Position numbers and translations under genes: made by a program | Part shown: positions 20,801 through 42,197 of the stretch, piece after piece | Layout of the letters: each line of letters starts with the position of its first letter | Numbering within the stretch: position 1 is the first letter of the stretch | From: Chondrosia reniformis | Taxonomy: Eukaryota > Porifera > Demospongiae > Chondrillida > Chondrillidae | Assembly: GCA_947172415.1 (NCBI GenBank) | Contig: OX359200.1 | Span: forward strand, 1,428,501-1,492,500 | DNA: 64,000 nucleotides | Reading direction: 5' to 3' | The notes under the pieces: model-generated | Told to the model about the DNA's origin: nothing | Database searches by the model: none | The model's input: the letters and a program-made list of their open reading frames with translations, nothing else

Positions 20801-23800
20801 GAATCTGTTAACAAGCCAGGGAGATAGCAGATAAATCTCAATAGCCTAAACTAAAAAAAGTGTTGAAGCTAGATCATCATCATACATTGGGTCTTTGATG
20901 GTCAGTCTGTTCTGACAAAGGAATCACCACAAATTAGTGTAACGGGAGACTCCTTAACATAATTGTAGCTAGTATGAATAAGGGGCAGTGCACTGGTGGT
21001 CATAACTAGCTGTCATACGTACGTAGGTTCAATTCCCAGTAATTGCTTCTTTCGTGTTTTTCCCTCTTCATGATAATGAGAATGATTACTTGTGGGTTGA
21101 TTATCACTTCAATTAGTCATCAATAATTATTTTTGCTTCTATTCTTGGCAAGCATAATAATTTTAAAATCAAAAAGAACCATATATTTGGTCTAATGGAG
21201 GAGATGAATTAACGTGACTCCAACCTTACTCAAAACTAAATAGGTAACTACAAGTACGTATGTAGGTATAGGCATGCGTGTATCTCTATATATAACAAGT
21301 AAATAAAAAACATTTACAAAAATGATGTCAGAAGTAGGAATGGCAGCGTTCACTAATACATCTGCAAAAAGTATCGAAACAAGACACTGATTATATGATA
21401 AGGCTAATCATACAGAAGTTGCATATATACTGAAATTTAAGTAACTTAACCATACACTTCTATGTTTGGGCGCACTAAGCTGAAGTAGGAATGGTGCGTG
21501 TATCTCTCTCTCTCTCTCTCTATATATATACGTATGTAGGGGTATATGCTGCATGGCTGAAGTGGCCACTTTACCATTCCCATGCTGGTAAGTGCATCAG
21601 CCTCCATTAGTGGCTTCTGGAGCTTCTTTGCTATTCGTTTGGCCTCCTCATAAGACCGCAGAGCACTGGCTGGTCTTCCCTTGTTGGAGTAGAGGGAACC
21701 TATTGAGACATGACAGCGGTACACCGTCTGTAAATCCTTTTGTTCTCTAGGAATGAGAGAGAGAGAATATACAATAAATATTTGTTTACAAATATACACA
21801 GTAGACATAATTATAAAATCGTCTTTCTTTATCATTAAACTGAGGCCAGCTGTCAAAGTGGACAATACTCAGGTTTCTTCATTGATAGGGTAACACACAA
21901 ATGTCTCCAATCAACTATATTTATTACTACAGGATGTATGTATAAATAGCTTAGAATATTGACTGTGATTGGTCCCTTAGTCCAGTACAGCCAGCCCCTC
22001 CTTCATTCATATTAGACTACCCCCATGAGTCTCAACTTTCTCATAGTATTAATTATTCTGACATCACAGATTACATCACTCATCATCTCCTATCACATTG
22101 TACCTATATGTGTATAATAGAAATGAATTTCTGAGTCATGGTACTAGTTGAATAAGATTGAACTGTCTCTCCCAGCTACTGGCATTACATTTGATTACTG
22201 GCTTTTAACAGTTCTGTCTGTTGGCACACTGACTTATGCACATATAGCACATCCACTATAAACCGGTCGACCATATTTCAAAAGAAGTACGTAAGATTGC
22301 ATTACTAGTGCAGATAAGATGTATGTACGTAGCTTATCAGAAAGCAATACAAAGTGGCTGCATTTCAGTGGTATTTACCAGTATATCATTTGCAATGCTA
22401 GGACTGGATAGGGGAATTTTGCCATTAATGAAAAAAGTTGTGTATTTAAATGTCAGCATTGAATAGGTGGATAACATAGGATTCACAGAAGATCAAGATA
22501 GAGAAAAGATAAAGACTCCCAGGATCACTGATGAAGGGTGGAATTCCCAGAAACGGCTGTCTGACCCAGTGGAGAAGAAGAGGAAAGAAGGGAAAAGAAG
22601 GAAGAAAAGACTCCTGTATCCTCATCCAAATCTCTCTTCAGGTTTAGTTCCCCTATAGGCTCTTTTACAGAATAGGCATATAGCATGTAGGAAAATGGTA
22701 TCTTAGATTTTTCATGAGTATCACAGATTTGATGGTCTATTATATTCCTATTTAATAACATTCTATTCACTATCCCTTATAAAAGAATTTTACAGGACAT
22801 ACCACAAATAGCCCTCTAAGTAGGAGAAAGATCATACAAATATAACAGTGGTGATAAACAAACTCCCTCTCTTAAAACCCACTACTCATAGCCTACAGTA
22901 CCTTAAACCCACTACTCATAGCCTACAGTACCTTAAACCCACTACTCATAGCCTACAGTACCTTAAACACACTACTCATAGCCTATAGTACCTTAAACCC
23001 ACTACTCATAGCCTACAGTACCTTAAACCCACTACTCATAGCCTACAGTACCTTAAACCCACTACTCATAGCCTACAGTACCTTAAACACACTACTCATA
23101 GCCTACAGTACCTTAAACCCACTACTCATAGCCTACAGTACCTTAAACCCACTACTCATAGCCTACAGTACCTTAAACCCACTACTCATAGCCTACAGTA
23201 CCTTAAACCCACTACTCATAGCCTACAGTACCTTAAACACACTACTCATAGCCTACAGTACCTTAAACACACTACTCATAGCCTACAGTACCTTAAACCC
23301 ACTACTCATAGCCTACAGTACCTTAAACCCACTACTCATAGCCTACAGTACCTTAAACCCACTACTCATAGCCTACAGTACCTTAAACCCACTACTCATA
23401 GCCTACAGTACCTTAAACACACTACTCATAGCCTATAGTACCTTAAACCCACTACTCATAGCCTATAGTACCTTAAACCCACTACTCATAGCCTATAGTA
23501 CCTTAAACCCACTACTCATAGCCTACAGTACCTTAAACCCACTACTCATAGCCTATAGTACCTTAAACACACTACTCATAGCCTACAGTACCTTAAACAC
23601 ACTACTCACAGCCTACAGTACCTTAAACCCACTACTCATAGCCTACAGTACCTTAAACACACTACTCATAGCCTATAGTACCTTAAACCCACTACTCATA
23701 GCCTACAGTACCTTAAACCCACTACTCATAGCCTACAGTACCTTAAACCCACTACTCATAGCCTACAGTACCTTAAACACACTACTCATAGCCTACAGTA

Positions 23801-25782
23801 CCTTAAACCCACTACTCATAGCCTACAGTACCTTAAACCCACTACTCACAGCCTACAGTACCTTAAACACACTACTCATAGCCTACAGAACCTTAAACCC
23901 ACTACTCACAGCCTACAGTACCTTAAACACACTACTCATAGCCTACAGTACCTTAAACCCACTACTCATAGCCTATAGTACCTTAAACCCACTACTCATA
24001 GCCTATAGTACCTTAAACCCACTACTCATAGCCTACAGTACCTTAAACACACTACTCATAGCCTACAGTACCTTAAACCCACTACTCATAGCCTACAGTA
24101 CCTTAAACACACTACTCATAGCCTACAGTACCTTAAACACACTACTCATAGCCTACAGTACCTTAAACACACTACTCATAGCCTATAGTACCTTAAACAC
24201 ACTACTCATAGCCTACAGTACCTTCAATATTGTTGGACATGTCATTGACATGAAACCTCTGCATTACCTCCACGAGGAGTAGGAAATGTCAACAAATATT
24301 GGTTTTTGCTAAATAAAATTTACATGAAAAATCAAAGAGATTATCAAATTACAGGTAATCACCATTGAACATGAAGTGGTAAAAATATGAAAGAATAAAT
24401 TCTGGGAATACCACTAGTTCTCTGCTAGTGACCTACATTTACCATTTATACTTCATTTACCACGAAATCCTTTACATATACACAAAATCAACTATAAAAT
24501 AAATTTTAAATTAGATTGTTACTTATCTTATGGTGCATCTCTTGACTCTTTGATGTTGCTGATGAAGACCCTCGGGGTCGAAACATTCAACAGGAAGATT
24601 TTAAACCAAAAACTGCATTTTAGATGCTCAATGAGTTGAGAGATGCACCATTTAAAAGATAAGTTCAATGCAGTCAGAAGAAATCCTTATTCTATTATAG
24701 ACTGTTGCTATAAAATAATTTTAAGTTACAAGTGCCATATACTCCTTCAATGACTTACTACCCTGCCCCATAAATTTGATGTATAGATGGTTATTATAGT
24801 TATATACTCCTACCTAGTCTCCCTCTTATAATTAACTAATTCCTGTGTGTGACAAGATGTAATAATGTACGTAATTGGATTTCTAGTGGGAGGGGGGCAT
24901 ATAAACAAATTGGCTACTATCAACAATGCATGAATAATCTAACACACCATTTTACTTACATGCTACAACTACTTACAAGTAAAGGTCTATAGGGAACTAA
25001 ACCTAGTAAGAGCTTTGGATGAGGATACAAAAGTTTTCTCCTTCTCCTTCTCATCTTCTCCACTGGGCCATGTATGACCTATATAGTCAAGAAACTGTAC
25101 GCCTACTACTGCATACACTTACCTTGCTATGATAAAGGCCTTGTTCATAAACTGCAGTGCCTGGTCAAGCGCATCCATCTCCTCGTACACCAAACCAATA
25201 TTGAGAAAGAGTCTTCCCTTCATACTCATCACCTGCTGCTCCTTCAAGCTCTCTATCTTGTCGCACACGTCTAGGCTGGAGAGATAGGCCTCAATAGCTC
25301 GCTGCAAGCGGCCAGTTTTCCCTTTCTTGTCGGACGCGTCAGCCCATATGAAGTAGGTTCGACCAATGGTGGCTAACGCCCTCTGCTCTTCAGTGAAATC
25401 ATTCAGCTGTCTCGACATCTGTAGATGCTTCATTTGATGCTCAAGGGCTAGTTCATACTCTGATAGATATTCAGACAGACACTCTCCAATCTTCCGATGA
25501 GCAATAGCAGCGCCCAAGGAGTCATTAACGGCTTCAGAAAGGGACAATTCAGTGAGGTGTTCCTTATAAGCCTTTTCGTGTTCACCTATAATTAGAATAC
25601 AGACTTCAAGATCTATGTACCTTGGGAATTATTACTGAACAGAGTTTTAACTGACCATTTTCAACATATAATAACCCTATTCTGTTGCATATTTCACTTT
25701 CTTGCTTCAAATCTTTTTGATTTTGAGCCTTTACTTTGTCTCGCTGCAACTTAGCAAGCTCTTTTTTCCATTGACCATTCAT
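8148..25782 (-). CDS. TONSL: TONSL (Tonsoku-like), complete, 17 exons, 1369 aa
   Basis: Exons (minus): 25656-25782, 25123-25585, 21575-21746, 20653-20767, 20318-20454, 19853-20014, 19040-19168, 18403-18586, 17994-18085, 17840-17929, 16687-16759, 15742-15905, 13984-15097, 12821-13264, 11615-11787, 10099-10268, 8148-8448. All phases agree (4110 nt; human protein 1378 aa). Domains in order: TPR repeats (about 1-430), an acidic Ser/Glu patch (about 450-515), ankyrin repeats (about 525-640, with GWTPLHEACNWGH), a low-complexity linker and ubiquitin-like region (exon 13, 637-1007), then leucine-rich repeats to the C-terminus. Family role: with MMS22L it loads RAD51 at damaged replication forks, and its ankyrin domain reads unmethylated H4K20 on new chromatin. 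The Asp, Trp, Glu and Asn of that pocket appear kept. The start at 25782 matches the human N-terminus. The neighbouring PX gene diverges 202 bp upstream. Confidence 0.96.
8770..8842. repeat. CA / GCAC microsatellite
   Basis: Perfect (ACAC)n flanks an inner (GCAC)n block in the last TONSL intron. Open frames on both strands here are only repeat translation. Confidence 0.95.
12031..12580. repeat. 22-bp minisatellite, 25 near-identical copies
   Basis: The unit contains CAACAGCCTGTACTAGGAGA and repeats every 22 bp with almost no variation; only the last unit shows a C-to-T change. It lies in the TONSL intron 12821/11787. Such uniformity implies recent expansion or strong homogenisation. Confidence 0.95.
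13826..13950 (+). repeat. Interspersed repeat family A, truncated
   Basis: Tail portion only (CTCTTGTATCCTCATCCAA, CCCTATAGGCCTTTTACT); the hammerhead-like head is missing. It lies in TONSL intron 13. Confidence 0.7.
17012..17785. repeat. 28-bp minisatellite, about 27 copies
   Basis: The unit contains GGAGACCCGCCCACCTCTCC and recurs every 28 bp, with T/C and A/C variants at a few sites. It is pyrimidine-rich on the plus strand, in a TONSL intron (between exons 17840-17929 and 16687-16759). The period is not a multiple of three, so the short frame over it is not a gene. Confidence 0.95.
18113..18312. repeat. 27-bp minisatellite, about 7 copies
   Basis: The unit contains TTCACTCCTGTCAAGTATAG. 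Because 27 is divisible by three it keeps several frames open on both strands, which explains the overlapping open frames here. It lies in the short TONSL intron 18086-18402. Confidence 0.93.
20976..21130 (+). mobile_element. tRNA-derived SINE, copy 1
   Basis: An A-box-like GTGCACTGGTGGTCATAACT is followed about 35 bp later by a B box, GGTTCAATTCC, then a tail with AATTGCTTCTTTCGTGTTTT and TGATTACTTGTGGG. The same B box and tail recur at 40741-40880. The pol III promoter layout marks a SINE; family not recognised. Confidence 0.65.
22490..22710 (+). repeat. Interspersed repeat family A
   Basis: Copy with CTGATGA at 22528-22534, hairpin GGG...CCC, then GAAACGGCTGTC and the shared tail. It lies in TONSL intron 2, just before the large 30-bp minisatellite. 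Confidence 0.8.
22872..24225. repeat. 30-bp minisatellite, about 45 copies
   Basis: The unit contains ACCCACTACTCATAGCCTAC and repeats exactly every 30 bp for 1.35 kb in TONSL intron 2. Variation is confined almost entirely to three positions (AAACCC/AAACAC, CTACAG/CTATAG, CATAGC/CACAGC), giving a readable string of unit types. No unique spacers, so not a CRISPR array. Confidence 0.96.
24520..24695 (+). repeat. Family B hairpin element with hammerhead-like core
   Basis: Flanking arms (GGTGCATCTCTTGACTC and GAGTTGAGAGATGCACC) are inverted copies, and their centre holds CTGATGAAGACC, a 4-nt loop and GGGTCGAAAC. This matches the hammerhead consensus for core and stem II. Stems I and III are not convincing. 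Related cores occur at 18734-18765, 19459-19485, 32585-32612, 39366-39400 and (minus) 38285-38325. Confidence 0.65.
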
Positions 25783-27395: not shown

Positions 27396-28139
27396 TTAGG
27401 ATGATGTAGTTTGGTCAGATGTAGAGTGGAACTTCTCAAATTGACTGTGTTCCTGTAGAATTCTATTGAGAAGCAGCCGGTCGTTAAATATTTCAGTATG
27501 CAGGAAGTAATTTTTTTCCTTGGCTTGAAATGATGCAAAGGATGCAACATTAGGAGGTGGTCCAGCTTCAGACAAGGAAAATATGGCATCTCTGACTCTT
27601 CCAAATATGGTAAAAGTATTCACTTTCAGCTGTTCATTTTTGTCATCAAACCACATTTTACTGACATAGGATTTAGTGAACCAGTGTAGTATCAGTGTTG
27701 TTGATACGCTAAAAAGGATTAGCAAGCTAGACATAGCGATTCTGCCGACCAGAGAGACGCCTTCAGGACTCGCCAGTATAAGAACAGGGGCGCCTAGAAT
27801 CATACAAATGGAACTACTTATAGAGAACAGCTTAATGGCCCTAACAGCCTTTGCAAATGGTGCTTCATAGACCAACTTGTACATTTGACTTCCATTCTCA
27901 TTTTCAACACTTTGGCTGAACCCTCTTATGGAAGTAGGTCCAAAGTTATGTCGACTTTTTGCTGTAGCAACTGGTATGCTCCGGTTCGACGAAATGAATC
28001 CCCTACTGCATCGTTCAGGAAAGTGGTAGGACTCGTTCTCGTGTGGTAACCTAGGACAGCTACTGAAAAATCTCACTGATCTCTCGAATATGTGACTTCT
28101 TTTGGAAAAGTTTAGCAAAAGGACTCCAGTCAGCGCCAT
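27396..28139 (-). CDS. TMEM70: TMEM70, mitochondrial ATP synthase assembly factor, single exon, 247 aa
   Basis: The N-terminus (about 1-85) is rich in Arg and Ser with few acids, as expected of a mitochondrial presequence. YKLVYEAPFAKAVRAIKLFS (about 88-107) leads into two membrane helices (about 105-128 and 131-153), followed by LHWFTKSYVSKMW, which aligns with the LHFITKGYV stretch of human TMEM70. The matrix C-terminal part carries SFASFQAKEKNYFL. Family role: inner-membrane scaffold for the c-ring of ATP synthase, also linked to complex I assembly. Human TMEM70 is 260 aa. Intronless. Its start codon lies 23 bp from that of MGM101. Confidence 0.88.
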   Translation of the reverse strand: MALTGVLLLNFSKRSHIFERSVRFFSSCPRLPHENESYHFPERCSRGFISSNRSIPVATAKSRHNFGPTSIRGFSQSVENENGSQMYKLVYEAPFAKAVRAIKLFSISSSICMILGAPVLILASPEGVSLVGRIAMSSLLILFSVSTTLILHWFTKSYVSKMWFDDKNEQLKVNTFTIFGRVRDAIFSLSEAGPPPNVASFASFQAKEKNYFLHTEIFNDRLLLNRILQEHSQFEKFHSTSDQTTSS

Positions 28140-28162
28140 TTTCTTTTTTCTTTTTTTATAAA
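28140..28162. promoter_or_regulatory. 23-bp interval between divergent start codons
   Basis: Only a pyrimidine-rich stretch with TTTCTTTTTTCTTTTTTTAT separates the TMEM70 (-) and MGM101 (+) start codons. Each transcript's 5' UTR, if longer than this, must overlap the other gene's coding sequence. Implies a shared core promoter. Confidence 0.6.
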
Positions 28163-29618
28163 ATGGCTTCTAAATGGCTGCAATATGCAAGACGAGTTAC
28201 CTTTTATCCATCTATTATCCGATCATCTGCTAATACGATTACCGCGTCAGGGAAAAGGTTATGCATGAGAAAGCTAACCACAGAAGCAAATAATGGTCAA
28301 GCCACGCCAAACAACTCCGGAGAAGAAGGTCTACCAAAGGAACTATTCTCTAAAATGTAAGGTCAAAGCGTGATAGCATGCAACTGCATTAATGAAATGT
28401 TTAATTAGTTATAGAGTTTAGTTAAAATGATATTCACCCATGCAATCTCCTCTTCCTTTTCAGACAAGGGGATCCTTATGTAGGAATATCATCCACCTCT
28501 TTTGGTGAAGAAGTAGTAAAAGTGTTGCTTGCACCAATCACAGACAGCGATATCGAAATCAAACCAGATGGATTGTTGTACCTACCAGAAATCAAATACA
28601 GAAGAATACTTCATAAAGCTTTTGGTCCTGGTGGGTGGGGCTTGATACCCAAGGGGGAAATCCTGCATTTTCAGGTAATAATGATAATTTTGTATGAGGA
28701 ATCTTGGCGTGAGTATTATGAAGGTGGGGTCTGCAATAGTGAGGTGGGGTCTGCAATAATGAGGTGGGGTCTGCAATAGCGAGGTGGGGTCTGCAATAAT
28801 GAGGTGGGGTCTGCAATAATGAGGTGGGGTCTGCAATAGCGAGGTGGGGTCTGCAATAGCGAGGTGGGGTCTGCAATAGCGAGGTGGGGTCTGCAATAGT
28901 GAGGTGGGGTCTGTATTGATGACCAACTGCAACCATGATCACATAATTATACAAATATTTCTTTGAACATAGAATGAGATAGAGGGAGCTCAGCTGATAA
29001 CTCGTGAATATGCTCTCTTCTGTCATGGACGCTATGTTGCCCAAGCTTTGGGAGAACACACATTCTACACTAAGAACAATTTGTCGTATGGAAAAGCTTG
29101 TGAATCAGCCAAATCTAATGCCCTCATGAGATGTTGTAAGGACTTAGGAATAGCCAGCGAGCTGTGGGACCCTCAGGTAGGAGAAGGGTTGGGTAGACTT
29201 ATGATTACTGGAGGAATTAGTGCATAAGTTTAGGGTCTGATTTCATCAGACTAGGTATAGCCAGTTAGCAATTTTTTCTCCTTTTATTGGATTGTACATA
29301 CATATACATCATATATAAAGTTTGTCATGTGACTGTACTTAGCCAGTCATGTGACTGTACTTAGCCAGTCATGTGACTGTACTTAGCCAGTCATGTGACT
29401 GTACTTAGCCAGTCATGTGACTGTACTTAGCCAATCATGTGTGACTGTACTTAGCCAGTCATGTGAGTGCTTCCTCTGTTTAGTTCATCAGCGAATGGAA
29501 AAAGAAGCATGCGGAGGACATTTGGTGTGAAAATGTACGAACTAGAGACAGAAAGAGACTATGGAGAAAGAAGAGCTCATCAGATCCATTTCCTTATCCG
29601 TGGAAAGCCAATCAGTGA
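28163..29618 (+). CDS. MGM101: MGM101, mitochondrial Rad52-like recombination protein, 4 exons, 247 aa
   Basis: Exons 28163-28356, 28464-28674, 28973-29176, 29484-29618, all GT-AG and in phase (744 nt). The N-terminus (1-40) is basic and Ser-rich, a likely mitochondrial presequence. The core is nearly fungal: LLAPITDSDIEIKPDGLLYL, PEIKYRRILHKAFGPGGWGL, TREYALFCHGRYVAQALGE, SAKSNALMRCCKDLGIASEL, then WDPQF and a basic C-terminus ending near PYPWKANQ. Yeast Mgm101 (269 aa) is a nucleoid protein that anneals single-stranded DNA and supports mtDNA recombination and repair. Vertebrates lack it. Introns 2 and 3 each hold a minisatellite. Host splice sites and the presequence argue against contamination. 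Confidence 0.93.
28721..28920. repeat. 20-bp minisatellite, about 10 copies
   Basis: The unit GAGGTGGGGTCTGCAATAGC (with AGT and AAT variants) lies in MGM101 intron 2. It opens long frames on the minus strand that are not genes. Confidence 0.95.
29324..29466. repeat. 22-bp minisatellite, about 6 copies
   Basis: The unit contains GTCATGTGACTGTACTTAGC; it lies in MGM101 intron 3, directly before the last exon (acceptor at 29482-29483). Confidence 0.93.
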
Positions 29619-30299: not shown

Positions 30300-32200
30300 T
30301 CTTTTTAGTTTTAGATTCATATATCACACCATTTGCCAGAGTTACAGCACTAAATGTACATTAAATTACTTATCATCCTAGCCTTTGCATGGCTCATTGA
30401 AATTAACTCCCTTTTTCATTAAATTACTGGTATACAAAGTTAATGTGTGGTGAGAGATAGGGCAAATTTGAGCTGATTTCAAAATTAACAAAATACATTG
30501 GAAACCTTTCATACATGTCTCTGAATACTAAGACAAAGTTATAGATTCATATCACACCATTTACAGAGTTACAACACTAAATATCCATTAAATTACTGGT
30601 ACACAAAGTATGGTGAGAGATAGGGCAAATTTGAGCAGGTTTTAAAATATTCAAAACACATTGGAAACCTTTCATACATGTCTCTGAATATATATATCTC
30701 TGTGAATAATGAGATAGAGTGTTAGATTTATATCTCTTCATTCAGAAGAATTACAGCACTTCATGTACTTTTTATTACTGCTGTACGAAGTTAATGTATT
30801 GTGAGAGATAGGGCAAATTTGAATAGATATCAAAATTTTCAAAACTCAATGAAAACCTTTTATACATCTCTGTGAACACTGAGATAGAGCTTTAGATTCA
30901 TATCTTTTCATTTGGAAGATTTACAGCACTTAATGTACTTTTTATTACTGCTGTACGAAGTTAATGAATTGTGAGAGATAAGGCAAATATGAGTAGATAT
31001 CAAAAGTTGCAAAACACAATGAAAACCTTTCATACATCTCTATGAACACTGAGATAGAGTTTCAGATTCATTTGGAAGAGTTACAGCACTTAATGTACTT
31101 TTTATTACTGCTGTATGAAGTTAATGTATTGTGAGAGATAGGCTAAATATGAATAAATATCAAAATTTGCAAAACTCATTGGATGTCTTTCATACATCTC
31201 TGTGAACACTGAGATAGATTTTCAGATTCATATCTCTTCATTTGGAAGAGTTACAGCACTTAATGCACTTTTTATTACTGCTATACGAAATTAATGTATT
31301 GTGAGAGATAGGGCAAATTTGAGCAGATATCATAATTTGCAAAACTCAATGAAAACCTTTCATACATCTCTGTGAACACTGAGATAGAGTTTCAGAATCG
31401 TATCTCTTCATTTGGAAGAATTACAGCACTTAATGCACTTTATATTACTGCTATACGAAGTTAATGTACGTATGGCGAGCAAATATGAATAGATATCAAA
31501 AGTTTCAAAACTCAATGAAAACCTTTCATACATCTCTGTGAACACTGAGATAGATTTTCAGATTCATATCTCTTCATTTGGAAGAGTTACAGCACTTAAT
31601 GCACTTTTTATTACTGCTATTCGAAATTAATGTATTGTGAGAGATAGGGCAAATTTGAGCAGATATCATAATTTGCAAAACTCATTGAAAACATTTCATA
31701 TATCTCTGTGAATAATGAGATAGAGTGTTAGATTCATATCTCTTCATTTGGAAAAGTTACAGCACTTAATGTACTTTTTATTACTGCTATACGAAGTAAT
31801 GTATGGTGAGAGATAAGGCAAATATGAGTAGATATCAAAATTTACAAAACTCAATGAAAACCTTTCATACATCTCTGTAAACACTGACATAGAGTTTCAG
31901 ATTCATATTTCTTCATTTGGAAGAGTTACAGCACTTAATGTACTTTTTATTACTGCTGTACGAAGTTAATGTATGGTGAGAGATAGGCCAAATATGAATA
32001 AATATAAAAATACGTTGAGAGATAGGGCAAATTTGAGCAGATTTCAAAATTGGCAAACCACATTGGAAACCTTTCATTCATGTCTCTGAATACTAAGACA
32101 AAGTTATAGATTCATATCACACCATTTGACAGAGTTACAGCACTAAATGTACATTAAATTACTGGTATACAAAGTTAATGCATGGTGAGAGATAGGGCAA
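30300..32200. repeat. Tandem array, ~170-bp unit, about 11 diverged copies
   Basis: Landmarks such as GAGAGATAGGGCAAAT, TTACAGCACTTAATGTAC and ACCTTTCATACATCTCTGTG recur about every 165-171 bp. Copies are diverged and some units are shortened. Partial single units occur at 37975-38215 and 58190-58390, so the unit is also dispersed. No coding frame and no ribozyme core were seen in it. Confidence 0.88.
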
Positions 32201-32695: not shown

Positions 32696-33604
32696 AACCA
32701 ATAAGGGCCCAACCTGGATTCAATTATAGGATACGACCTTGCATAGCTAAATTTATGCCATAAATTTCTAACTCCTAAGACATTTTCTTATCATTATAGA
32801 AATCCCCTTGTGTGATATGGTACCCTTTAAATTTGTGTTGAAACCTACGTAGCTCAAAGCGTTCCTCTAAGTAGGAATAAGAGGGTCTTCTTCGTAGTTG
32901 AAGTTTCGGTTGCCTAAAGTGCAGCGATATTATACAATTTCAGAATGCGATTCTCGTTAGTATCTTTGATCTTCGTAAATGTATTATACTTCCTTATCGT
33001 CGACATGCATGAACATATATTGGTGTGACTCAGGCTCGATTGTCAGATACAACGTTTATTAGTGCATTATCTCACAAATACATACTTGGTTGACCTAATT
33101 GACTAACCACTGTAGTGGTTAGTCTTTACAGTGGTTAGTCTTTGGTCGACCTAATTGCATTTATGGTTATGCTATACAGAACACCCGTCACAGAGGAGAC
33201 GGAAAAGGACGATATATAGAGTAAATGATCGATTATCGGACACCCTCAAATTATCCGTACTTTGTCAGCACTCATGTGAGCCCGATTGTTAAATCAATTT
33301 CGTTGCTGATAGCTGCAATAAACAGATTTCAGACTTAAACTTACCTGGTTACTGTGTTCTTTTGAGATGTGCTAGTCACTGTATACGTGTATGTGTTGTA
33401 AGCACTACTATTTTCTAAATGATTTAATTTTTTAATCTAAATGATCTGTACATTTCAACATACACCCCATGAGTGAGCAGGGGTAATATCCAGAGTTCAA
33501 TGATTATGATGATATTAATGCTTTAAAGCATATTTTTGCAATTTACCACTGTCTTTGTCATCAATTCTTCATTTAGATATAATTTGTGATCATGAATTGT
33601 AAAA

Positions 33605-36600
33605 CATTAAATATTCAATATGTCACATTTTATAGGTATTACCCATATAACAACAATGGACAAAAAGTGGACATTACTGTTTGCTGTAGTGATACTCTGG
33701 TGGGTTGCAAACACTATTGTTAGCATTGTATCCAAGAAACTTATGATTGATGGAAGCCTTGTTACCAGTGGAGTCACCAATTGGATACCAGCTTTTGTGG
33801 ACCTGAGATGGATAGAACTGACAGCATTTCAGTTACTGTTTGGAGGGACAGTAGCCATGATATGGTTGAGGACAACTGGAAACAGAAACATATCTATTTC
33901 TCAGCATGCCAAGGCTAGTAAATATACAGTTGTGGCAGCCATCATTGCAAATTTAGTTGGTAACCTAGCAACCAATGCTGCTTATGCCACTATTAGCTCT
34001 AGCTCTACACAAGTAATCAAATCCTTTGAACCCATTTTTATCTTTACTCTTATGAGATGTTTCTACAAGGAGGAAGAAGAGAATTTGACCTATATTGCTT
34101 TGTCTTCTGTCACTCTAATGAGTCTAGGTGCGTCCATGTTTGTGGTAGGTGACAACTCATTCAATGTCTGGGGTGTAGGTGCAGCTGTTGTTTCCAATAT
34201 CGCTTTTGCTGTACGAAATATCTTATTGAAGAAGTTGTACACATTCAGAGAGAATTCTTTCCAAACTTATGCGATTATTTCATTCTATGGCGGTATATTC
34301 ATTTTACCTGTTGTTTTACTTATGTTGGGAAATAAAGTAGTATTTCTCAAAACACTACCTGGAGCAACTCTTAGGACTGAATATGCTGTTTCTTCGTTCT
34401 TCTACTTTGTGTATAACCTTGCTTCTATATCTGTGTTACAAAGTGTTGGTCCTCTAAGCCATTCACTTTTCAATCTTACAGAAAGAGTGATTGTAATCCT
34501 GGCTAACATCATTTTCTTTTCTATTCCATTTTCATTGATTGTGGTTTTAGGATTTCTAGTGTTTCTCTTGGGTCTTGTAATGTATCACCTGAAATCATTA
34601 AAGCCACATGTGTTCAAATTATTTAACATCAAATGTAATTCCTTAAAATGTATAGTGTGTATATACATTTCCTTTTTGCTTGTCTTAAGTGTTCTATTAG
34701 TGTATCACAATAGCAGTTCAATAGAAAATGTAGACTATGAGGATAAAACCATAAATTTTGGAAAGCTGCAAAAAATTGCCACAGCATGGATGTATTCCAA
34801 AGAGTTGCCAAAAGAGGTTGTCTCAAATATCAATAGCATGCACTTTCTTAATCCAAACACTTTCCTTTGTGTGTATTGCGGTACCTCTCAGTGCATCAAA
34901 GCAATCACAGATCTGAAAAATCATCTAATTGATTCTGAGTTTCTTGTGATTCCTAAAATTCTAAAGGATACACCCTTGGAATCATGGTTTAGTCATCATC
35001 CTATTAACAAAGTTTTGGTAGGTCCTGAATTTGAAAATCATCTCCAAGAAGCAGTTCAACTTGCTCTCCAGTGGCACCATGGCGGATTGTACTTTAATCC
35101 CACACTCAGTGTTAAGAACTTTATAATGCCCTCTCTACCACACAATGCTTGGATATCTTCAAGAACCAGCAACTTGACCAAACAAACTTTCAAATTTGAA
35201 ATATCAAACTTTCCATCACACCATCCCTTTGTGGCTCAGCTGATGGAAAATTATGTTAAAGATTATCCAAAGTTTGGAGATATCAGCCATTCCACTTGGC
35301 CTCTTGCATTTGACTTTCAGAGGACCATAAGGGATACCTTTGCAAAATTCTGTTCATCGAACACTGATACATGTCCCACAATCATTACCCAACATGTATC
35401 AGAACTAAAGTTAACAAAAGTCAGCCATCATTTTGCTACACTAACCTATGATCAACGTGTTGCAAAATATAAAGGAGCTAACTTAGGAGATGAAATTCAA
35501 GGATTTCCTGGACTACAATTTCTTCCTTTTGTGGAGACATTTCTTGAAAGAGATAATCTTGACCAGGCAAAAGGAACGAAGGATGTAACTGTCTTCTTTA
35601 ATGCATGGTGGGGTGATAGTAAGACTAGCTGGCCTCCTCCAAGCAATATTGATCCTCTTCTTCTGTCCATTCACCTAGACAGTGATATTATACCTATCAT
35701 CAAAAAGAACCTTGAATATTTTAGGAATAAAGCACCCATTGGAAGTAAGGACATAGAAACACTCCATAATCTCAAACATTTGTTGGGACCAGATGCTGCC
35801 TATTTTTCTGGCTGCTTGACTCTACTGCTGAAGAATCCCAACCAGATTAGTAGCAATCAGAGGAAAGATATTTATTTAGTCGATGTTAAAAGTGATTATG
35901 AAAGCCTTTTACCAGTTCAAATTAAAGAAAAAGCAATTAAAATTGAGCAATACATAACTGGTGATGAGAAAGATGATAACATGAAACGCTTTTCTGCGGC
36001 ATACAACTTAATAGAAAAGTATTCCCGTGCCTCCATAGTCATCACACAGAGAATACATGCAGCATTACCATGTGTGGCCATGGGAACACCAGTGATCTTT
36101 ATAAATTCCCCATATTTACCAGGTGGAGGAGGAAGCGACACAAAGCCTAGTCCACGTACAACAGGACTTTTATCTCTTTTTCATACACTGGACATGTACA
36201 CAATGTCAGTAGAAGATGCCAAGGAGTGGCTGAGCACTTTTAACTGGCAGGATCCCCCTCCTAATCCGGATGTTGGTAAGCTGATGAGAATCAGAGCTAC
36301 AGCTTGGGATGTGATCCGTCAAAGAAGCTACTTCTATGACGCCTCACAAAAGTTTGGTCTTATTCCTTTCTCACCCCCTCCTGTAGCTGAAACGAAAGAG
36401 CTTTTGTTTCATCTGGTTTTTACCACTACAAGCAAAAGTAATGTATCAGTATTTGGGAGCACCAAGAGTGTCAGTGGGGCTTTTAATTGGAGACACTTGC
36501 GAACTCTTGAATCAATCTTCTATCGTCATCCCTTTGCTAAAGTAATAATTCACAGCAGCACTTTGCTACAAAGGCAATTTAATGTGTTGACTGAAGTGGG

Positions 36601-37335
36601 ATACAATGTTGAGGTAGTAACCTACACTCTAGAAGACTTGGTGAAAGACACACCAGCGGCATCATTTGTAGGTGATAAGTTGAAGAACGCTACAGGAGGA
36701 AAATTTTGGTACGCACATGAATCAGATTTGATTCGTTTATTAGTACTGTACAAGTGGGGAGGTGTCTACATTGATACTGATGTCATTCTTGTGCGTTCAT
36801 TTGACAATTTGAAGTTGAATAAACTCGTTTGGCAAGATTTGTATGGCACCAGGCTGAATAATGGTGTGATGATGTTTGAAAAAGGTCACACTTTTCTAAG
36901 AGATTGTTTAAAGGAATTTGCTGAAACTTATCGAGGTGATGAGTGGGATTATAATGGTCCAGGGCTATTAACAAGAATACTGGATAAGTGGAAGGATGCA
37001 AATGGTTTATACCAACAAAATGGCTCAGATGTTCAAGTTTTGGGTAAAAAAGCTTTTTATATGTTTTCTTGGGATGTGGTTGAAGAGCAATGTTTTCAAA
37101 ACACTTCTGAAAGTTCCTTTGCCCATTTTATGAAGACTATGAAAAAGAAAGCTTATGGTGTTCATCTTGCCTCAAAGATGACAGGCCTTGAAGGGGTGGA
37201 TTCAAAATTAAAAGAGAAGACCTTTTGCAAATATATTTTGAATAAATTCTGTGTACTCTGTAGTAGAATTTACTAAGAATATATAGTTAAACATGTAGTA
37301 TTAATGTCATTTTTGGATTCGGCCCTTAATATTAG
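33605..37335 (+). repeat. Large inverted duplication, left arm (~3.7 kb)
   Basis: Covers the fusion gene plus about 50 bp upstream (TGTCACATTTTATAG versus TGACACATTTTACAC in the partner) and about 65 bp downstream (GTCATTTTTGGATTCGGC versus ATCATTTTTGTATTCGGC). The partner arm at 47683-51435 is inverted. Confidence 0.9.
33656..37276 (+). CDS. Fusion: TPT/SLC35E-type transporter + GT32-like + pyruvyl transferase + GT32, copy 1, 1206 aa
   Basis: Single exon. The start MDKKW at 33656 is chosen because only this Met is shared with copy 2 (the frame is open from 33620). Residues 1-315 form a ten-helix triose-phosphate-translocator-family transporter, with TQVIKSFEP, SNIAFAVRNILLKK and GPLSHS. The usual Lys-Arg of the last helices is Glu276-Arg277. 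Residues 331-350 are an extra membrane helix that should carry the rest into the Golgi lumen. Residues 400-570 resemble GT32, but NPT (481-483) replaces the DxD. Residues 590-905 are a polysaccharide pyruvyl transferase domain (ANLGDEIQ 608-615; R799-I-H801 resembling the RLH of the PEP pocket in yeast Pvg1). Residues 915-1206 are an A4GALT/GT32-type glycosyltransferase with HESDLIRLLVLYKWGGVYID and DTD at 1040-1042. The domain calls are secure; the PEP/pyruvyl coupling is inferred. Confidence 0.9.
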   Translation: MDKKWTLLFAVVILWWVANTIVSIVSKKLMIDGSLVTSGVTNWIPAFVDLRWIELTAFQLLFGGTVAMIWLRTTGNRNISISQHAKASKYTVVAAIIANLVGNLATNAAYATISSSSTQVIKSFEPIFIFTLMRCFYKEEEENLTYIALSSVTLMSLGASMFVVGDNSFNVWGVGAAVVSNIAFAVRNILLKKLYTFRENSFQTYAIISFYGGIFILPVVLLMLGNKVVFLKTLPGATLRTEYAVSSFFYFVYNLASISVLQSVGPLSHSLFNLTERVIVILANIIFFSIPFSLIVVLGFLVFLLGLVMYHLKSLKPHVFKLFNIKCNSLKCIVCIYISFLLVLSVLLVYHNSSSIENVDYEDKTINFGKLQKIATAWMYSKELPKEVVSNINSMHFLNPNTFLCVYCGTSQCIKAITDLKNHLIDSEFLVIPKILKDTPLESWFSHHPINKVLVGPEFENHLQEAVQLALQWHHGGLYFNPTLSVKNFIMPSLPHNAWISSRTSNLTKQTFKFEISNFPSHHPFVAQLMENYVKDYPKFGDISHSTWPLAFDFQRTIRDTFAKFCSSNTDTCPTIITQHVSELKLTKVSHHFATLTYDQRVAKYKGANLGDEIQGFPGLQFLPFVETFLERDNLDQAKGTKDVTVFFNAWWGDSKTSWPPPSNIDPLLLSIHLDSDIIPIIKKNLEYFRNKAPIGSKDIETLHNLKHLLGPDAAYFSGCLTLLLKNPNQISSNQRKDIYLVDVKSDYESLLPVQIKEKAIKIEQYITGDEKDDNMKRFSAAYNLIEKYSRASIVITQRIHAALPCVAMGTPVIFINSPYLPGGGGSDTKPSPRTTGLLSLFHTLDMYTMSVEDAKEWLSTFNWQDPPPNPDVGKLMRIRATAWDVIRQRSYFYDASQKFGLIPFSPPPVAETKELLFHLVFTTTSKSNVSVFGSTKSVSGAFNWRHLRTLESIFYRHPFAKVIIHSSTLLQRQFNVLTEVGYNVEVVTYTLEDLVKDTPAASFVGDKLKNATGGKFWYAHESDLIRLLVLYKWGGVYIDTDVILVRSFDNLKLNKLVWQDLYGTRLNNGVMMFEKGHTFLRDCLKEFAETYRGDEWDYNGPGLLTRILDKWKDANGLYQQNGSDVQVLGKKAFYMFSWDVVEEQCFQNTSESSFAHFMKTMKKKAYGVHLASKMTGLEGVDSKLKEKTFCKYILNKFCVLCSRIY

Positions 37336-37605
37336 AACATCTAGAAAAAGCATATAAGAAAGACTTTTTGCAAACATATATGTATATATTCCGCAAACGA
37401 GTTTTATAATACTATCTATTGCATGTATGAAGAATAAGGAGTGCTTGTTGCGATTGTTATGAGAATAAAGTCGTCTTATTGAGCGTCAGCAACATGAATT
37501 TATATACTAATTCTGGATGTTTCAATCTGATCTGTAGATTATATACTCCTATCTTGTCTTTCTCTGTGGGCCCGGTGGTGTCTTCATTAGTTTCGAGTGT
37601 AGTGC

Positions 37606-37916
37606 GGTGGTGGACAGGATCCCTTGTCAATGTGGAGCAGTATACATAGGAGAAACCGGCCAGTCACTCAACCAGAGAATGCATGAGTGAACATAAGAGA
37701 GCAGTTTCAAGAATGGATCAAAACAACTCATTAGCAGCACATGTATAATCACACAACATAGACTGGGATGGGGCCACAGTGCTACAATGTGAACAAAACA
37801 GAACAAGAAGGAAGATCAAAGAGACCATACACATCAGAACCACATCATGCATGAACATGGATCAGGGGATGCACTTAAGCTTGGATGCCATTTGTGACAA
37901 CATTGTAGCCAACTAA
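37606..37916 (+). mobile_element. Penelope-like GIY-YIG endonuclease fragment
   Basis: The translation contains PCQCGAVYIGETGQSLNQRM and EHKRAV, the hallmark of the GIY-YIG endonuclease found downstream of reverse transcriptase in Penelope-like retroelements. Only this C-terminal piece is present and it is broken. No reverse transcriptase is seen nearby. Confidence 0.75.
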
Positions 37917-38375: not shown

Positions 38376-41300
38376 ATGATGCCGCAGCTATGGAGGAGGT
38401 GTCTTTCCAATGTTAAGAATAAATCATTTCTAGGTAAGAAAAAGGTTAGTGAGAGAGAATGATTTTTACATTTCAGTGATTATATGTTAGTAATGGTATA
38501 CAGGACCGCAAATTTGTTGATTGGAAGAAGGTGCTAGTTAGAGGCGGAAATGGAGGATGCGGTTGCATGAGCTTTAGAAGGTCTAGTTACTAACTTTTCG
38601 CGTACCATTTGTACTAGTTCTTTCGTTTTATATAGGCGGCCAATCTTTCTTCAATTACTGTGGATATTGAAATAGTACATGTTCTTACAAAATAACTGGT
38701 TGGGAGGGAGTGTTTTGAGTGTCGAGCACCCTTTTTCGGTTTGAGTTTTTGTTAGCCACATTTCAAACTTTTAGTAAATTACTAGCCAAATCGCCTCATA
38801 CCCAAGTCCCCTATATAACCCTCCCCCCTCCCCCCTTACAGATTATTAGATTCGCCCCTGTTGCATGTAGTTGTGATTCATATGTTGTAATAGTTTTTGA
38901 TGGTATCTTCAAGTAATACTACATACAGGAGCGTATTGGTCATATAGGGAAGCCAATCTGAGATTTGGTGGTCCGGATGGTGGCAATGGAGGTAATGGCG
39001 GAGCTGTTATTGTGACTGCAAGTAGCGCAGTAAAATCACTGACACACGTGCACCATCACTATTCAGGAGGACATGGAGGGTCTGGAGATGGAAGCAAACG
39101 ACAAGGACACACTGGTGAAACAGTAGTTATAAAAGTAATTTATAAATGAATGTTACCTGCTACAGAATATGGGTGGGTGGTTTAAGTCTTAGCTTCAATA
39201 ATCTCCATTCATTGGAGATACACTTTTGTGTCTGTGATTAATAGCCTCCAGTTAAACCTAGCTCTACAGGGCATCTGACTATTGAGGAAACTAGAAAATA
39301 TTCTCAGAATAAGCATTTTCCTGTCAATGTGGTTGACATGCATACAAGGCTAGGGAAACATACATACGTATTGCTGATGAAGACCTACGTATGAGTAAAA
39401 CCCTTTTATTCAAAGAATTCTTGTTCCTATTGCTCACTAACTTACTAACTAACTCATATAGACCAATATACAATTTTTCACTTATGGAAAGACTATATAA
39501 GTTTGGAATGAGGATATGGTTTTCTTATCTAAGTCTTCTTTTTCCTTTTTCTAAAATTGACCAGACAGCTGTTTCTGAGAATTCCACTCTTTTTCACTGA
39601 CCCTTATCCTTAGCTCCCTATGATAAATTTTAGGACATTTTTAGGTATAGAAATTTGTTGCCAATTACGTTCTAGATGACATCACAGAAATGGAATTAAG
39701 CTCTAAGTGCTCTAATTTATAGATATTTACTGTAATTTGTAGTAAAAATCGTCAGAAAACTCATATTTACCACTGTGCTATAAGGCCTTTTCGGAGAATA
39801 CCACTCCTCATCAGTAGCACTGGGTAGCAATTCTTTAGAGTAACCAAGCTACCAATTCTTTATCTCTCGACAAAGGATTGGCTGAAACACATTTTAAAAA
39901 CGTCAAACCTATAACTCAGAAAACTCTATAACAAACATCAATATTATTATGTAGGCAAAATACCCAGTGCTACTGATGAGGAGTGGTATTCTTCGAAAAG
40001 GCCTTATAGCACAGTGGTAAACTTGAGTTTTCTGATGATTTTTACTACGAATTACTAAGCCCATAAGCCGGGGCCGCAACCCTTTCTTCAATGCCGCGAT
40101 GGCGAGACTAAGTGAGTCCAATGTAGGTATTAAAACGGTTAATAATTCCTTGTTCAGATATTTACCGTGCCATTTTCAATCCATATATACAGTGGACCTT
40201 ACCTTGCGAGATGTTTGCATACGCATGACACCTGCTGCAGTGAATCTGTCAAGCAGAACTTATTACCTGTTCTCAGGTTCCATTAGGCACTGAGGTCAAG
40301 GACACAATTACTGGAGAAGTGTTATCAGATCTCTATAGTGATGGTTCCCTAGTTACCGTGGCCGAAGGAGGAAAAGGTAGACAAACTTGTATTATTTAAG
40401 TCATTCAAACAAATGTTGTGTTGTGTGTCCAATCAATAGGTGGAAAGGGTAACACTTCATTTACCAGCTCAACTCACCAGCGACCCATGGAAACCACTCC
40501 TGGGGAGGAGGGTCGGGTAAGGACTTTAACACTTGAAATGAAGATTTTGGCTGATATAGGTTTGGTACGTAAGTATATTAAATTTCATGTGTTAAATGCA
40601 CATTTCCTGGTTAATAGGAATGTTGAAAATATACTAACATTGTTATGTTGCTAATTTATGTTAGTATGACATTTTTCTTAACTTTCATTTGTTTAACACA
40701 TTTAATATAAATACTACATTACTATCTGTCTCTAAATATATATCCAGCTGTCCTGGGTTCGATTCCTAGCAATTGCTTCTTTTGTGTTTTTCATGATGTT
40801 TGACTGATTATAATTACTTGTGGTTTGATTGATTATCACTTAGATTATTCATACCTTAAATTATGCATTTACTTTTGTTTAAAACAGAAAGCTTTTAAAA
40901 ATCCTGCTGTCTGATACCTAGGTGGGGTTTCCTAATGCTGGGAAGTCAACCCTTTTGAGGAGTCTCTCCAGGGCTACCCCAGCGGTGGCTGCATATCCAT
41001 TTACCACTCTAAATCCCCACATTGGAATGGTCATGTATGACGATGGAACACAAATAGCAGGTACATACACACGTATACGTACGTATATAGTACATGAGGC
41101 ACATATATACAGTACCTACATAATATGGTACTGTATATACATACGTATGTACTAACATAGGAACTGATCATTTATATATTATTTTCACTTCTACAGGAGT
41201 GTTTTTTTACAATATTATATCCTATCTATTGTTGTCCAATGCTCTTAATTGATGTGTGGTAGGACAGTTTGTTATACCAAATATGTGCGCACATCGCAAA

Positions 41301-42197
41301 GTTGCACTACTGTTTAATTTGAAGGTGCATGAGTAATCTTACATACTACGTCTATTCTCCTATAAGGAATTATGGATGCATACGCATTTAAATATAAACA
41401 CTTGACCTTCATGCATATGACCTATAGAATACTCTCGTTGGACTTAGTATTTTGTTTGTCATCTAATACATACGTACTGTATGGGCGGAAAATTTGGCAA
41501 GGATTTTAATTTGACAGTTTGGCGGTCTGGCTGATAACCACCAAATTTAAATCCATACATATTTTTGTTTGAGTTATGGCTGGCTACTATGATAACCAGA
41601 CCGAGCAGCTGTGTACGTGGCCACTGTAGACTGGATGACATTACAGATTTGAGTTGCAACACCATCAGATTTTAACTTCATCAATTGACCTACATTATAT
41701 AAATATACCCAGTTTAAAGCCAAACCAGCGAATTTAAATGCTGTCAAATTTTCCAGCTATACGATATAAAGGCCCTGTACTCTTAATAATGTTCATGCAC
41801 TGTGACTATTTTTCACTGCTACTGTATAGTGGCTGATATACCTGGTCTGATCTCGGGAGCACATCGTAATGTTGGACTGGGTCACGCCTTCCTGAGACAC
41901 ATTGAGAGGTGTACAGGCCTTCTCTATATAGTGGATCTGGAGAAGAGCGAGACGGCTGCACTTGACCAGATTAAGTGCTTGCGTCATGAGCTGAATATGT
42001 ACAAGACAGAGCTTGGGAACAAACCAGCTGGTGTGGTAGCCAACAAGATTGATGTCAGCAATACTGATGTGATTGTGCAACAGTTGGCCAAGGAGATATC
42101 TCTTCCCATCATTCCTGTTTCCGGATTATGCAAGTGGAACATTACACCACTGAAACAATTTATTTATAACCTCTGCAGAATACACAAACAATCATAA
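38376..42197 (+). CDS. MTG2: MTG2/GTPBP5, mitochondrial Obg GTPase, 7 exons, 354 aa
   Basis: Exons 38376-38444, 38504-38580, 38948-39134, 40277-40376, 40440-40564, 40922-41060, 41830-42197; all GT-AG, phases consistent (1065 nt). A short basic N-terminus ([16 protein letters not shown]) looks like a presequence. An Obg fold follows (about 24-180), with Gly-rich [22 protein letters not shown] and [11 protein letters not shown], then a G domain with G1 GFPNAGKST, switch [10 protein letters not shown]4 NKID and the SG-L G5 region. KFVDWKKV and HIERC are typical of MTG2 rather than GTPBP10. Family role: GTPase for late assembly of the mitochondrial large ribosomal subunit. Exon 1 is the least certain: its donor is GTTAGT, and a frame stays open upstream through a family B repeat, but MM at 38376 is the sensible start. 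Intron 3 holds two ribozymes. Confidence 0.92.
39775..39820 (-). ncRNA. Hammerhead ribozyme, minimal type I (family C)
   Basis: On the minus strand: stem I GTGCTA with TAGCAC, core CTGATGA (39808-39814), stem II GGAG with CTCC, GAA, stem III palindrome AAGGCCTT, and cleavage predicted after the following A (a UA site). All pairs are Watson-Crick. Confidence 0.85.
39967..40012 (+). ncRNA. Hammerhead ribozyme, minimal type I (family C)
   Basis: Stem I GTGCTA (39967-39972) with TAGCAC (40007-40012), core CTGATGA (39973-39979), stem II GGAG with CTTC (one G-U), GAA, stem III AAGGCCTT, cleavage after A40006. Inverted partner of 39775-39820. Confidence 0.83.
40741..40880 (+). mobile_element. tRNA-derived SINE, copy 2 (5' truncated)
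   Basis: B box GGTTCGATTCC, then AGCAATTGCTTCTTTTGTGT and ATTACTTGTGGTTTGATTGA, matching the copy at 20976-21130. The A box is absent. It lies in MTG2 intron 5. Confidence 0.65.

Follow-up and report, generated by a model that had tools for sequence, protein, structure and literature searches.

The window analysed here, a stretch of 64,000 nucleotides from the genome of the sponge Chondrosia reniformis, encodes a protein that unites a membrane carrier, a polysaccharide pyruvyl transferase (PvT) domain and glycosyltransferase (GT) domains in one chain, and the earlier observation of this protein, made from the letters alone, is real. A single open frame of 1206 residues is confirmed, as is the domain order, which begins with a TPT carrier and continues with an 11th membrane helix, a GT-A domain without DXD, the PvT domain and a GT32/Gb3-synthase domain with DXD (Table 1). 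The best explanation, which we consider reasonably probable, is that a carrier for phosphoenolpyruvate (PEP), a pyruvyl transferase and a second GT unit are combined in one Golgi-type animal protein family. Speculative and on balance doubtful is the more far-reaching idea of a single-chain machine, the animal glycan pyruvyltransferase still missing, whose carrier passes PEP straight to the lumenal site, and whose local duplicates give up either pyruvylation or glycosylation in favour of the other and thereby diversify the acidic glycans of sponge self-recognition.

Table 1. Features of the fusion gene (window copy) and of the second copy in the window, in window positions.
Feature	Position	Strand	Remarks
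Whole coding sequence, 1206 aa + stop	33656..37276	+	Intronless; three further open copies in genome
TPT carrier, ten helices, residues 1-312	33656..34591	+	PF03151 E 4.7e-30; model helices; 5y78
Residue 276, Glu instead of Lys/Arg of phosphate-binding KR dyad	34481..34483	+	Aligned with KR of 5y78
11th membrane helix, residues 329-354	34640..34717	+	Model; hydropathy
GT-A domain related to GT32, residues 371-587	34766..35416	+	NPT replaces DXD, codons 35096-35104
PvT domain, residues 589-905	35420..36370	+	
Residue 698, Lys instead of near-invariant Arg of GCRD motif	35747..35749	+	Taken as Pvg1p R217 / CsaB R148
R799-I-H801, aligned with Pvg1p R337-L-H339 (PEP site)	36050..36058	+	Profile alignment to 5ax7, E 0.09
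GT32 / Gb3-synthase-like domain, residues 913-1206	36392..37273	+	DTD, codons 36773-36781
AATAAA, possible poly(A) signal	37464..37469	+	Pattern only
Second intact copy, 1212 aa	47746..51384	-	E276, K698, N612 (first-copy numbering)

Profile searches found PF03151 in the carrier and PF04230 at residues 589-905, both above the Pfam cut-offs, and PF04488 and PF04572 in the C-terminal domain. The carrier has the ten-helix fold in the model, a GT-A fold is seen in the predicted structure of the N-terminal, supposedly lumenal GT domain, and the PvT domain has a Pvg1p-type fold as well. The gene extends over 3.6 kb without an intron, whereas 7.2 exons per transcript are given for the genome of this sponge in PMC12181767.

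A protein unique to this sponge is ruled out: the protein search gave 91 alignable relatives (P0092, with 14% coverage, was left out of the family alignment), and these include Halichondria, the coral Xenia and the starfish Patiria. The family is known in sponges, cnidarians and a starfish, and is under purifying selection. Four intact copies are clustered on one chromosome of the Chondrosia genome, and one of them, a sister copy about 164 kb from the window copy (C12:1629721-1633317), keeps every scored site. Among the open-licence papers listed, we found no account of such a fusion.

With plastid phosphate translocators (TPT/PPT; 5y78), the carrier shares the fold and, in most of the family, the Lys and Lys-Arg ligands; 5y78 is the top Foldseek match of the protein (E 2.2e-10) and ranks first also by sequence profile. 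Unlike these translocators, the sponge protein misses the cut-off of TIGR00817, the plastid tpt subfamily (90.9 vs 317.9 bits), is fused to enzymes, and has a Glu in the dyad of the window copy. Position 276 is K in 68/86 and R in 8/86 relatives, and the dyad K/R276-R277 is kept in 65 of 85 relatives as well as in the sister copy; the phosphate ligands of the window copy read K122, E276 and R277. Judged by these residues, the window copy is a TPT carrier by descent with an apparently lost phosphate ligand. The cargo of the carrier is most likely PEP. Phe184, present in 82 of 86 relatives, occupies a position that is said to exclude PEP in the Arabidopsis TPT and at which a small residue would be expected in a PEP-specific carrier. 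A diatom TPT2 that has the same Phe but a changed His carries PEP (PMC6981301), and the counterpart of this His is Asn in 55/85 relatives.

In the PvT domain, the residues D612, K698, R799 and H801 of the window copy correspond to Pvg1p D106, R217, R337 and H339, with the equation of residue 698 and R217 relying on motif and spacing. All four sites are kept in 70 of the 91 relatives and in the sister copy, and position 698 is R in 78/91 relatives and in >90% of the rows of an alignment that includes bacterial relatives. In CsaB, R148K and R148Q are both inactive, according to PMC10435577. Because of E276 in the carrier and K698 in the PvT domain, the window copy has probably lost pyruvylation and would be a GT-only protein. 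The making of pyruvylated glycans had been ascribed to this very protein; the family is a candidate for it, but the window copy probably does not pyruvylate.

The sequence likeness to Pvg1p is low (5ax7 profile E 0.09). Full-length structure searches had no Pvg1p among the matches listed, which were filled by carrier and GT-A matches, and Pvg1p was matched when the PvT domain was searched alone. Single-domain polysaccharide pyruvyl transferases of bacteria and diatoms have about 29-37% identity to the PvT domain among the matches listed and share its NxGD, GCRD and RxH motifs, but unlike the sponge protein they have no carrier or GT domain.

As to the GT domains, the earlier note had described two of GT32 type. 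This holds for the C-terminal one with its DXD, but not in full for the N-terminal one, which has NPT in the window copy and lacks a complete DXD in all 91 relatives. The C-terminal domain has PF04488/PF04572 and the DXD in common with Gb3 synthase, an animal GT32 enzyme (lactosylceramide 4-alpha-galactosyltransferase); unlike in Gb3 synthase, the sponge domain is the last part of a chain that also has 11 membrane helices and a PvT domain. We infer the reactions of the PvT and GT domains. GT32 enzymes are retaining, and beta-galactose would thus not be a product of the GT32 domain. It is a beta-galactose that bears the pyruvate in Microciona (PMC6801904).

The proposed extra helix is borne out, as the model contains an 11th helix and the best 19-residue hydropathy at this position is at least 1.6 in 69/79 relatives. 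The 11 helices and the loop charge sums (even loops +10, odd loops -3) fit a probable position of the enzymes on the lumenal side, as had been suggested. Two observations speak against it: the loop that follows helix 11, lumenal in this topology, carries a net positive charge in 46 of 79 relatives, and sequons are not enriched (5.97 seen vs 5.81 expected). The protein presumably resides in the Golgi.

A new result is the two-pair pattern of domain decay: the carrier and the PvT domain are one decaying pair, the two GT domains (GT1, N-terminal; GT2, C-terminal) are another, and the pairs are mutually independent. The decay scores, from which P0091 was excluded, have a partial r of 0.76 for TPT-PvT and of 0.62 for GT1-GT2 (independent contrasts 0.56 and 0.34; on a second tree 0.41 and 0.27), and of -0.11 to 0.08 for the remaining four domain pairs. 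When the 11/91 rows that are gapped at one of the sites are excluded, 53 of the remaining 80 relatives retain the TPT as well as the PvT sites, 15 have lost both, and 12 retain just one of the two. Counted as events, on the premise that the ancestor was intact, that the root lies at the midpoint and that no site was regained, 10 of 14 PvT losses coincide with TPT losses (4.7 expected, p 0.0004) and 2 of 14 with GT32 losses (6.9 expected, p 0.001), and this holds when three long rows and one of the Chondrosia losses are removed. If the nine rows with the strongest decay, which were picked after the decay scores were known, are left out, the TPT-PvT partial r is 0.24 and the event test gives p 0.05. 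In terminal branch lengths, TPT-PvT does not stand out (partial 0.03), and the couplings are instead GT1-PvT (partial 0.55) and TPT-GT2 (partial 0.39); an independent-pairs test was underpowered and not significant (3.6 same vs 0.3 opposite, 8 pairs). The co-decay of carrier and PvT domain, apart from the GT pair, suggests that the carrier supplies the pyruvyl transferase. The postulated donor import thus gains support from the tie between carrier and PvT domain, while PEP, the putative cargo, has the pocket residue Phe184 against it.

In the mechanism that we propose, donor import and donor use would take place within one chain of a Golgi-type animal membrane protein. The ten-helix carrier would let a small phosphorylated molecule, most likely PEP, enter the lumen, where the 11th helix would place all downstream domains, and the PvT domain would attach the pyruvate of PEP to a glycan sugar. 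Addition of a sugar would be the task of another unit with its own course of evolution, made up of the pseudo-GT-A domain and the C-terminal GT32 domain. In fission yeast, Pet1p/Pet2p bring PEP to the Golgi Pvg1p (PMC4872226 and PMC6801904), but Pvg1p (5ax7), Pet1p and Pet2p of Schizosaccharomyces pombe are three separate proteins without fused GT domains. A carrier search, restricted by a word filter, gave 7 proteins, all of them nameless, and thus no link to Pet1p. Gene copies may specialise, either keeping carrier and PvT and losing the GT32 site, or losing carrier and PvT and keeping GT32; the window copy would most likely be of the latter type, next to the sister copy with all sites kept.

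What alternatives exist for this mechanism? The carrier could move triose phosphate, sugar phosphate or phosphate, for example exported phosphate released from PEP, with only an indirect tie to the PvT domain. We regard this as unlikely: the kept phosphate-binding residues and Phe184 would agree with it, and a carrier for phosphate exit would likewise vanish along with PvT, but a lumenal enzyme that consumes PEP is most simply supplied with PEP itself, and PEP-for-phosphate exchange is a known mode of phosphate-translocator-type PEP carriers.

Rather improbable is a nucleotide-sugar transporter that serves the GT32 domain, with PvT as a passenger that receives its PEP from another carrier. The KR dyad, which sets phosphate translocators apart from nucleotide-sugar carriers, argues against this, and so do the first rank of 5y78 and the TPT-GT2 decay partial r of -0.11. 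Nucleotide-sugar transporters share the TPT fold and rank beside 5y78 by Z (27.9-26.7), Phe184 is as in a TPT that does not carry PEP, and the terminal branch lengths join TPT and GT2, but carrier-site losses follow PvT losses and shun losses of the GT32 DXD.

Of similarly low probability is co-decay by neighbouring relaxed constraint, or by gene conversion in the clustered copies, without a common function. The signal leans heavily on the nine decayed rows, and between two of the copies dS varies from domain to domain (0.06 to 0.23), as conversion would give. However, GT1 lies between TPT and PvT and decays with neither (partial r 0.08 and 0.02), and distance along the gene therefore is no explanation for the co-decay.

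Although the lack of introns amid 7.2 exons per transcript (PMC12181767) could point to an assembly artefact, contamination or a viral insert, this is hardly conceivable, as four open copies on one chromosome, ordinary animal neighbour genes and the relatives in Patiria, Xenia and Halichondria exclude contamination and assembly artefacts, and one scan of viral contigs, weak with its two short patterns, yielded 20 pattern matches, none of them a relative.

Pyruvylated glycans have been reported in a sea hare and in sponges, where the adhesion glycan of Microciona is one of them, and the available parts of these reports name no animal enzyme for glycan pyruvylation (PMC6801904, PMC6994554, PMC7828597). 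The carrier/PvT family is a good candidate for this unnamed enzyme that places pyruvate on animal sugars, concrete and testable, with members in sponges, cnidarians and a starfish. As put forward in the earlier note, a role in cell adhesion may be envisaged. In the secretory pathway, it would be unusual for an enzyme to be built in one piece with the carrier that supplies it, and the co-decay is an independent reason to think that both domains cooperate. It is predicted that copies of one gene may differ in which arm still functions.

As to the origin of these copies, the similarity between them starts at 33631, 33544 or 33665 and ends at 37287 or 37280, and the flanks do not align beyond these limits. 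Inspection by eye revealed no poly(A) tail at the copies. Retroposition and gene conversion are both compatible with these observations.

The fusion of a carrier, a pyruvyl transferase and glycosyltransferase domains in one frame, which the earlier note had described, is correct, and the window gene is a member of a family that is found in several animal phyla. The protein search gave 92 matches, 79 of which contain TPT and PS_pyruv_trans, with a GT32-type Pfam domain in addition in 68 (counted by hand). Relatives with a named source come from Patiria miniata (two proteins), Halichondria panicea and Xenia sp., whose GT32 match is slightly below the threshold (22.8 vs 23 bits), and Actinia tenebrosa has a 528-aa protein of pyruvyl transferase domain (PvT) and GT32. 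The window protein shares 42% identity with the Patiria relative P0035, PvT being the most conserved domain (52%), and the nearest PvT relatives beyond the family are single-domain proteins of diatoms, cyanobacteria and other bacteria (120 of 243 matches listed). A published description of a carrier-PvT-GT32 family was not found among the matches listed in the open-licence papers searched.

The proposed coupling of donor import to pyruvyl transfer is supported at the family level by the way in which the domains evolve. In our alignment of 91 relatives (P0092 excluded), all sites are readable in 80, of which 53 have kept both the TPT and the PvT sites, 15 have lost both, 5 have kept only TPT and 7 only PvT (Fisher p 2e-7, not corrected for kinship). 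The GT32 DXD motif behaves in the opposite way to TPT, being lost in 31 of the 58 relatives that keep TPT and present in 19 of the 22 that have lost it. When loss events were placed on a tree built from GT columns only, assuming an intact ancestor, PvT losses touched TPT losses in 10 of 14 cases (4.7 expected, p 0.0004) and GT32 losses in 2 of 14 (6.9 expected, p 0.001). The TPT result persists without one Chondrosia loss (9/13 vs 4.4, p 0.0017) and without three long rows as well (9/13 vs 4.3, p 0.0018); with the nine most decayed rows also removed, it is 4/9 vs 1.8 (p 0.05), and 3/7 in the reverse test (p 0.11).

Decay scores, which give for each domain the fraction of moderately conserved columns that have been lost (77 TPT, 32 N-terminal GT1, 107 PvT and 40 C-terminal GT2 columns; 79 proteins), yield partial correlations of 0.76 for TPT-PvT and 0.62 for GT1-GT2; the remaining four pairs lie between -0.11 and 0.08. 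Independent contrasts retain TPT-PvT (0.56, p <0.0002) and GT1-GT2 (0.34, p 0.0018), the others not being significant, and so they do when active-site columns are removed and the tree is built on the TPT and PvT columns (0.41, p <0.0002, and 0.27, p 0.009). Nearness along the chain does not explain the pattern, because GT1 lies between TPT and PvT and follows neither. Three results count against two modules: the TPT-PvT partial correlation falls to 0.24 without the nine decayed rows, an independent-pairs test had too few pairs, and terminal branch lengths, which rise together in all domains, give a partial of 0.03 for TPT-PvT, with 0.55 for GT1-PvT and 0.39 for TPT-GT2.

In a profile alignment to the phosphate translocator structure 5y78, K122 and residue 276 each fall on a Lys and R277 on an Arg. 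The six residues that make up the pocket of Arabidopsis TPT, H184, K203, F262, Y338, K359 and R360 (PMC6981301), were mapped by hand from this alignment to family positions 103, 122, 184, 253, 276 and 277. Residue 122 is Lys in 74 and Arg in 5 of 85 relatives, residue 276 Lys in 68 and Arg in 8 of 86, and residue 277 Arg in 70 of 85, so that the dyad 276-277 is whole in 65 of 85. At position 103, 55 of 85 relatives have Asn. At position 184, 82 of 86 have Phe, which counts against PEP as cargo, but a diatom TPT2 having that Phe and an altered His still carries PEP (PMC6981301).

In the PvT domain, R799-I-H801 aligns with R337-L-H339 of Pvg1p in a weak profile match (E 0.09), and D612 and R698 were equated with Pvg1p D106 and R217 (CsaB R148) by motif and spacing; the CsaB variants R148K and R148Q are both inactive (PMC10435577). 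A complete DXD is present in 0 of 91 N-terminal and in 52 of 88 readable C-terminal GT domains, and 24 of 91 relatives, both Patiria proteins included, are intact at the TPT, PvT and GT32 sites alike. Among the Chondrosia copies, the window's own has E276 and K698, C12:1476k and C12:1514k have E276, K698 and N612, and C12:1629k has K276, R698 and D612, while the GT32 DXD is kept in 4/4. Judged from these residues, the window's own copy probably retains the GT32 arm but no longer has the pyruvylation arm. The relatives P0044-P0084 include groups that are its mirror image, with carrier and PvT sites kept and the GT32 DXD lost.

In the window protein the charges of the even loops sum to +10 and those of the odd loops to -3, with medians of +8 and -2 across the family. 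These values favour a cytosolic N-terminus, and helix 11 would therefore place the enzymes in the lumen; a weak point is that in most relatives the loop following helix 11 carries no net negative charge. GT32 enzymes are retaining. The family's GT32 domain would for this reason not make the linkage of the beta-galactose that carries pyruvate in Microciona (PMC6801904), which agrees with the independence of the two modules. In fission yeast, Pet1p and Pet2p bring PEP into the Golgi, where Pvg1p uses it (PMC4872226, PMC6801904), and the family may carry out such import and pyruvyl transfer within one chain. Import and use of PEP in one chain would most simply account for the fold, the sites and the co-decay.

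The assembly comprises 15 contigs with 117,379,552 bases, contig C12, which contains the window, having 7,521,688, in line with the published odChoReni1 (117.37 Mb, 14 chromosomes and mitochondrion, chromosome 12 of 7.52 Mb; PMC12181767). PF04230 has four matches genome-wide, every one on C12, and the four full-length copies are all open frames of 1201-1212 aa, spread over ~171 kb. Pairwise whole-gene dN/dS is 0.39-0.57, and no single domain exceeds 0.78 in any pair. In the four-copy alignment (window 33544-37287 and the loci L005, L006 and L007 of the other copies), only coding sequence aligns and similarity ends close to its ends, the flanks being unalignable though dS is ~0.1. dS also varies by domain. 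Retroposition or gene conversion could be the source of this pattern.

Features around the window's own copy
Feature	Window positions	Strand	Remarks
Second intact copy	47746-51384	-	protein 91% identical; E276, K698, N612
TMEM70-like; MGM101 exons; OBG-type GTPase	27399-29224 and 38901-42194	-; +; +	
Minisatellite	22875-24224		30-base unit, 45 copies
Satellite, 5' of gene	30692-32011		unit ~170 bases, eight copies
Short decayed stretch, 3' of gene	37600-37700		resembles GIY-YIG endonuclease of a retroelement, by eye

The adjoining TMEM70-like, MGM101 and OBG genes are ordinary animal genes. The minisatellite gives a 468-codon open frame, which is probably not a gene, and fragments of the satellite also occur near the copy in L006.
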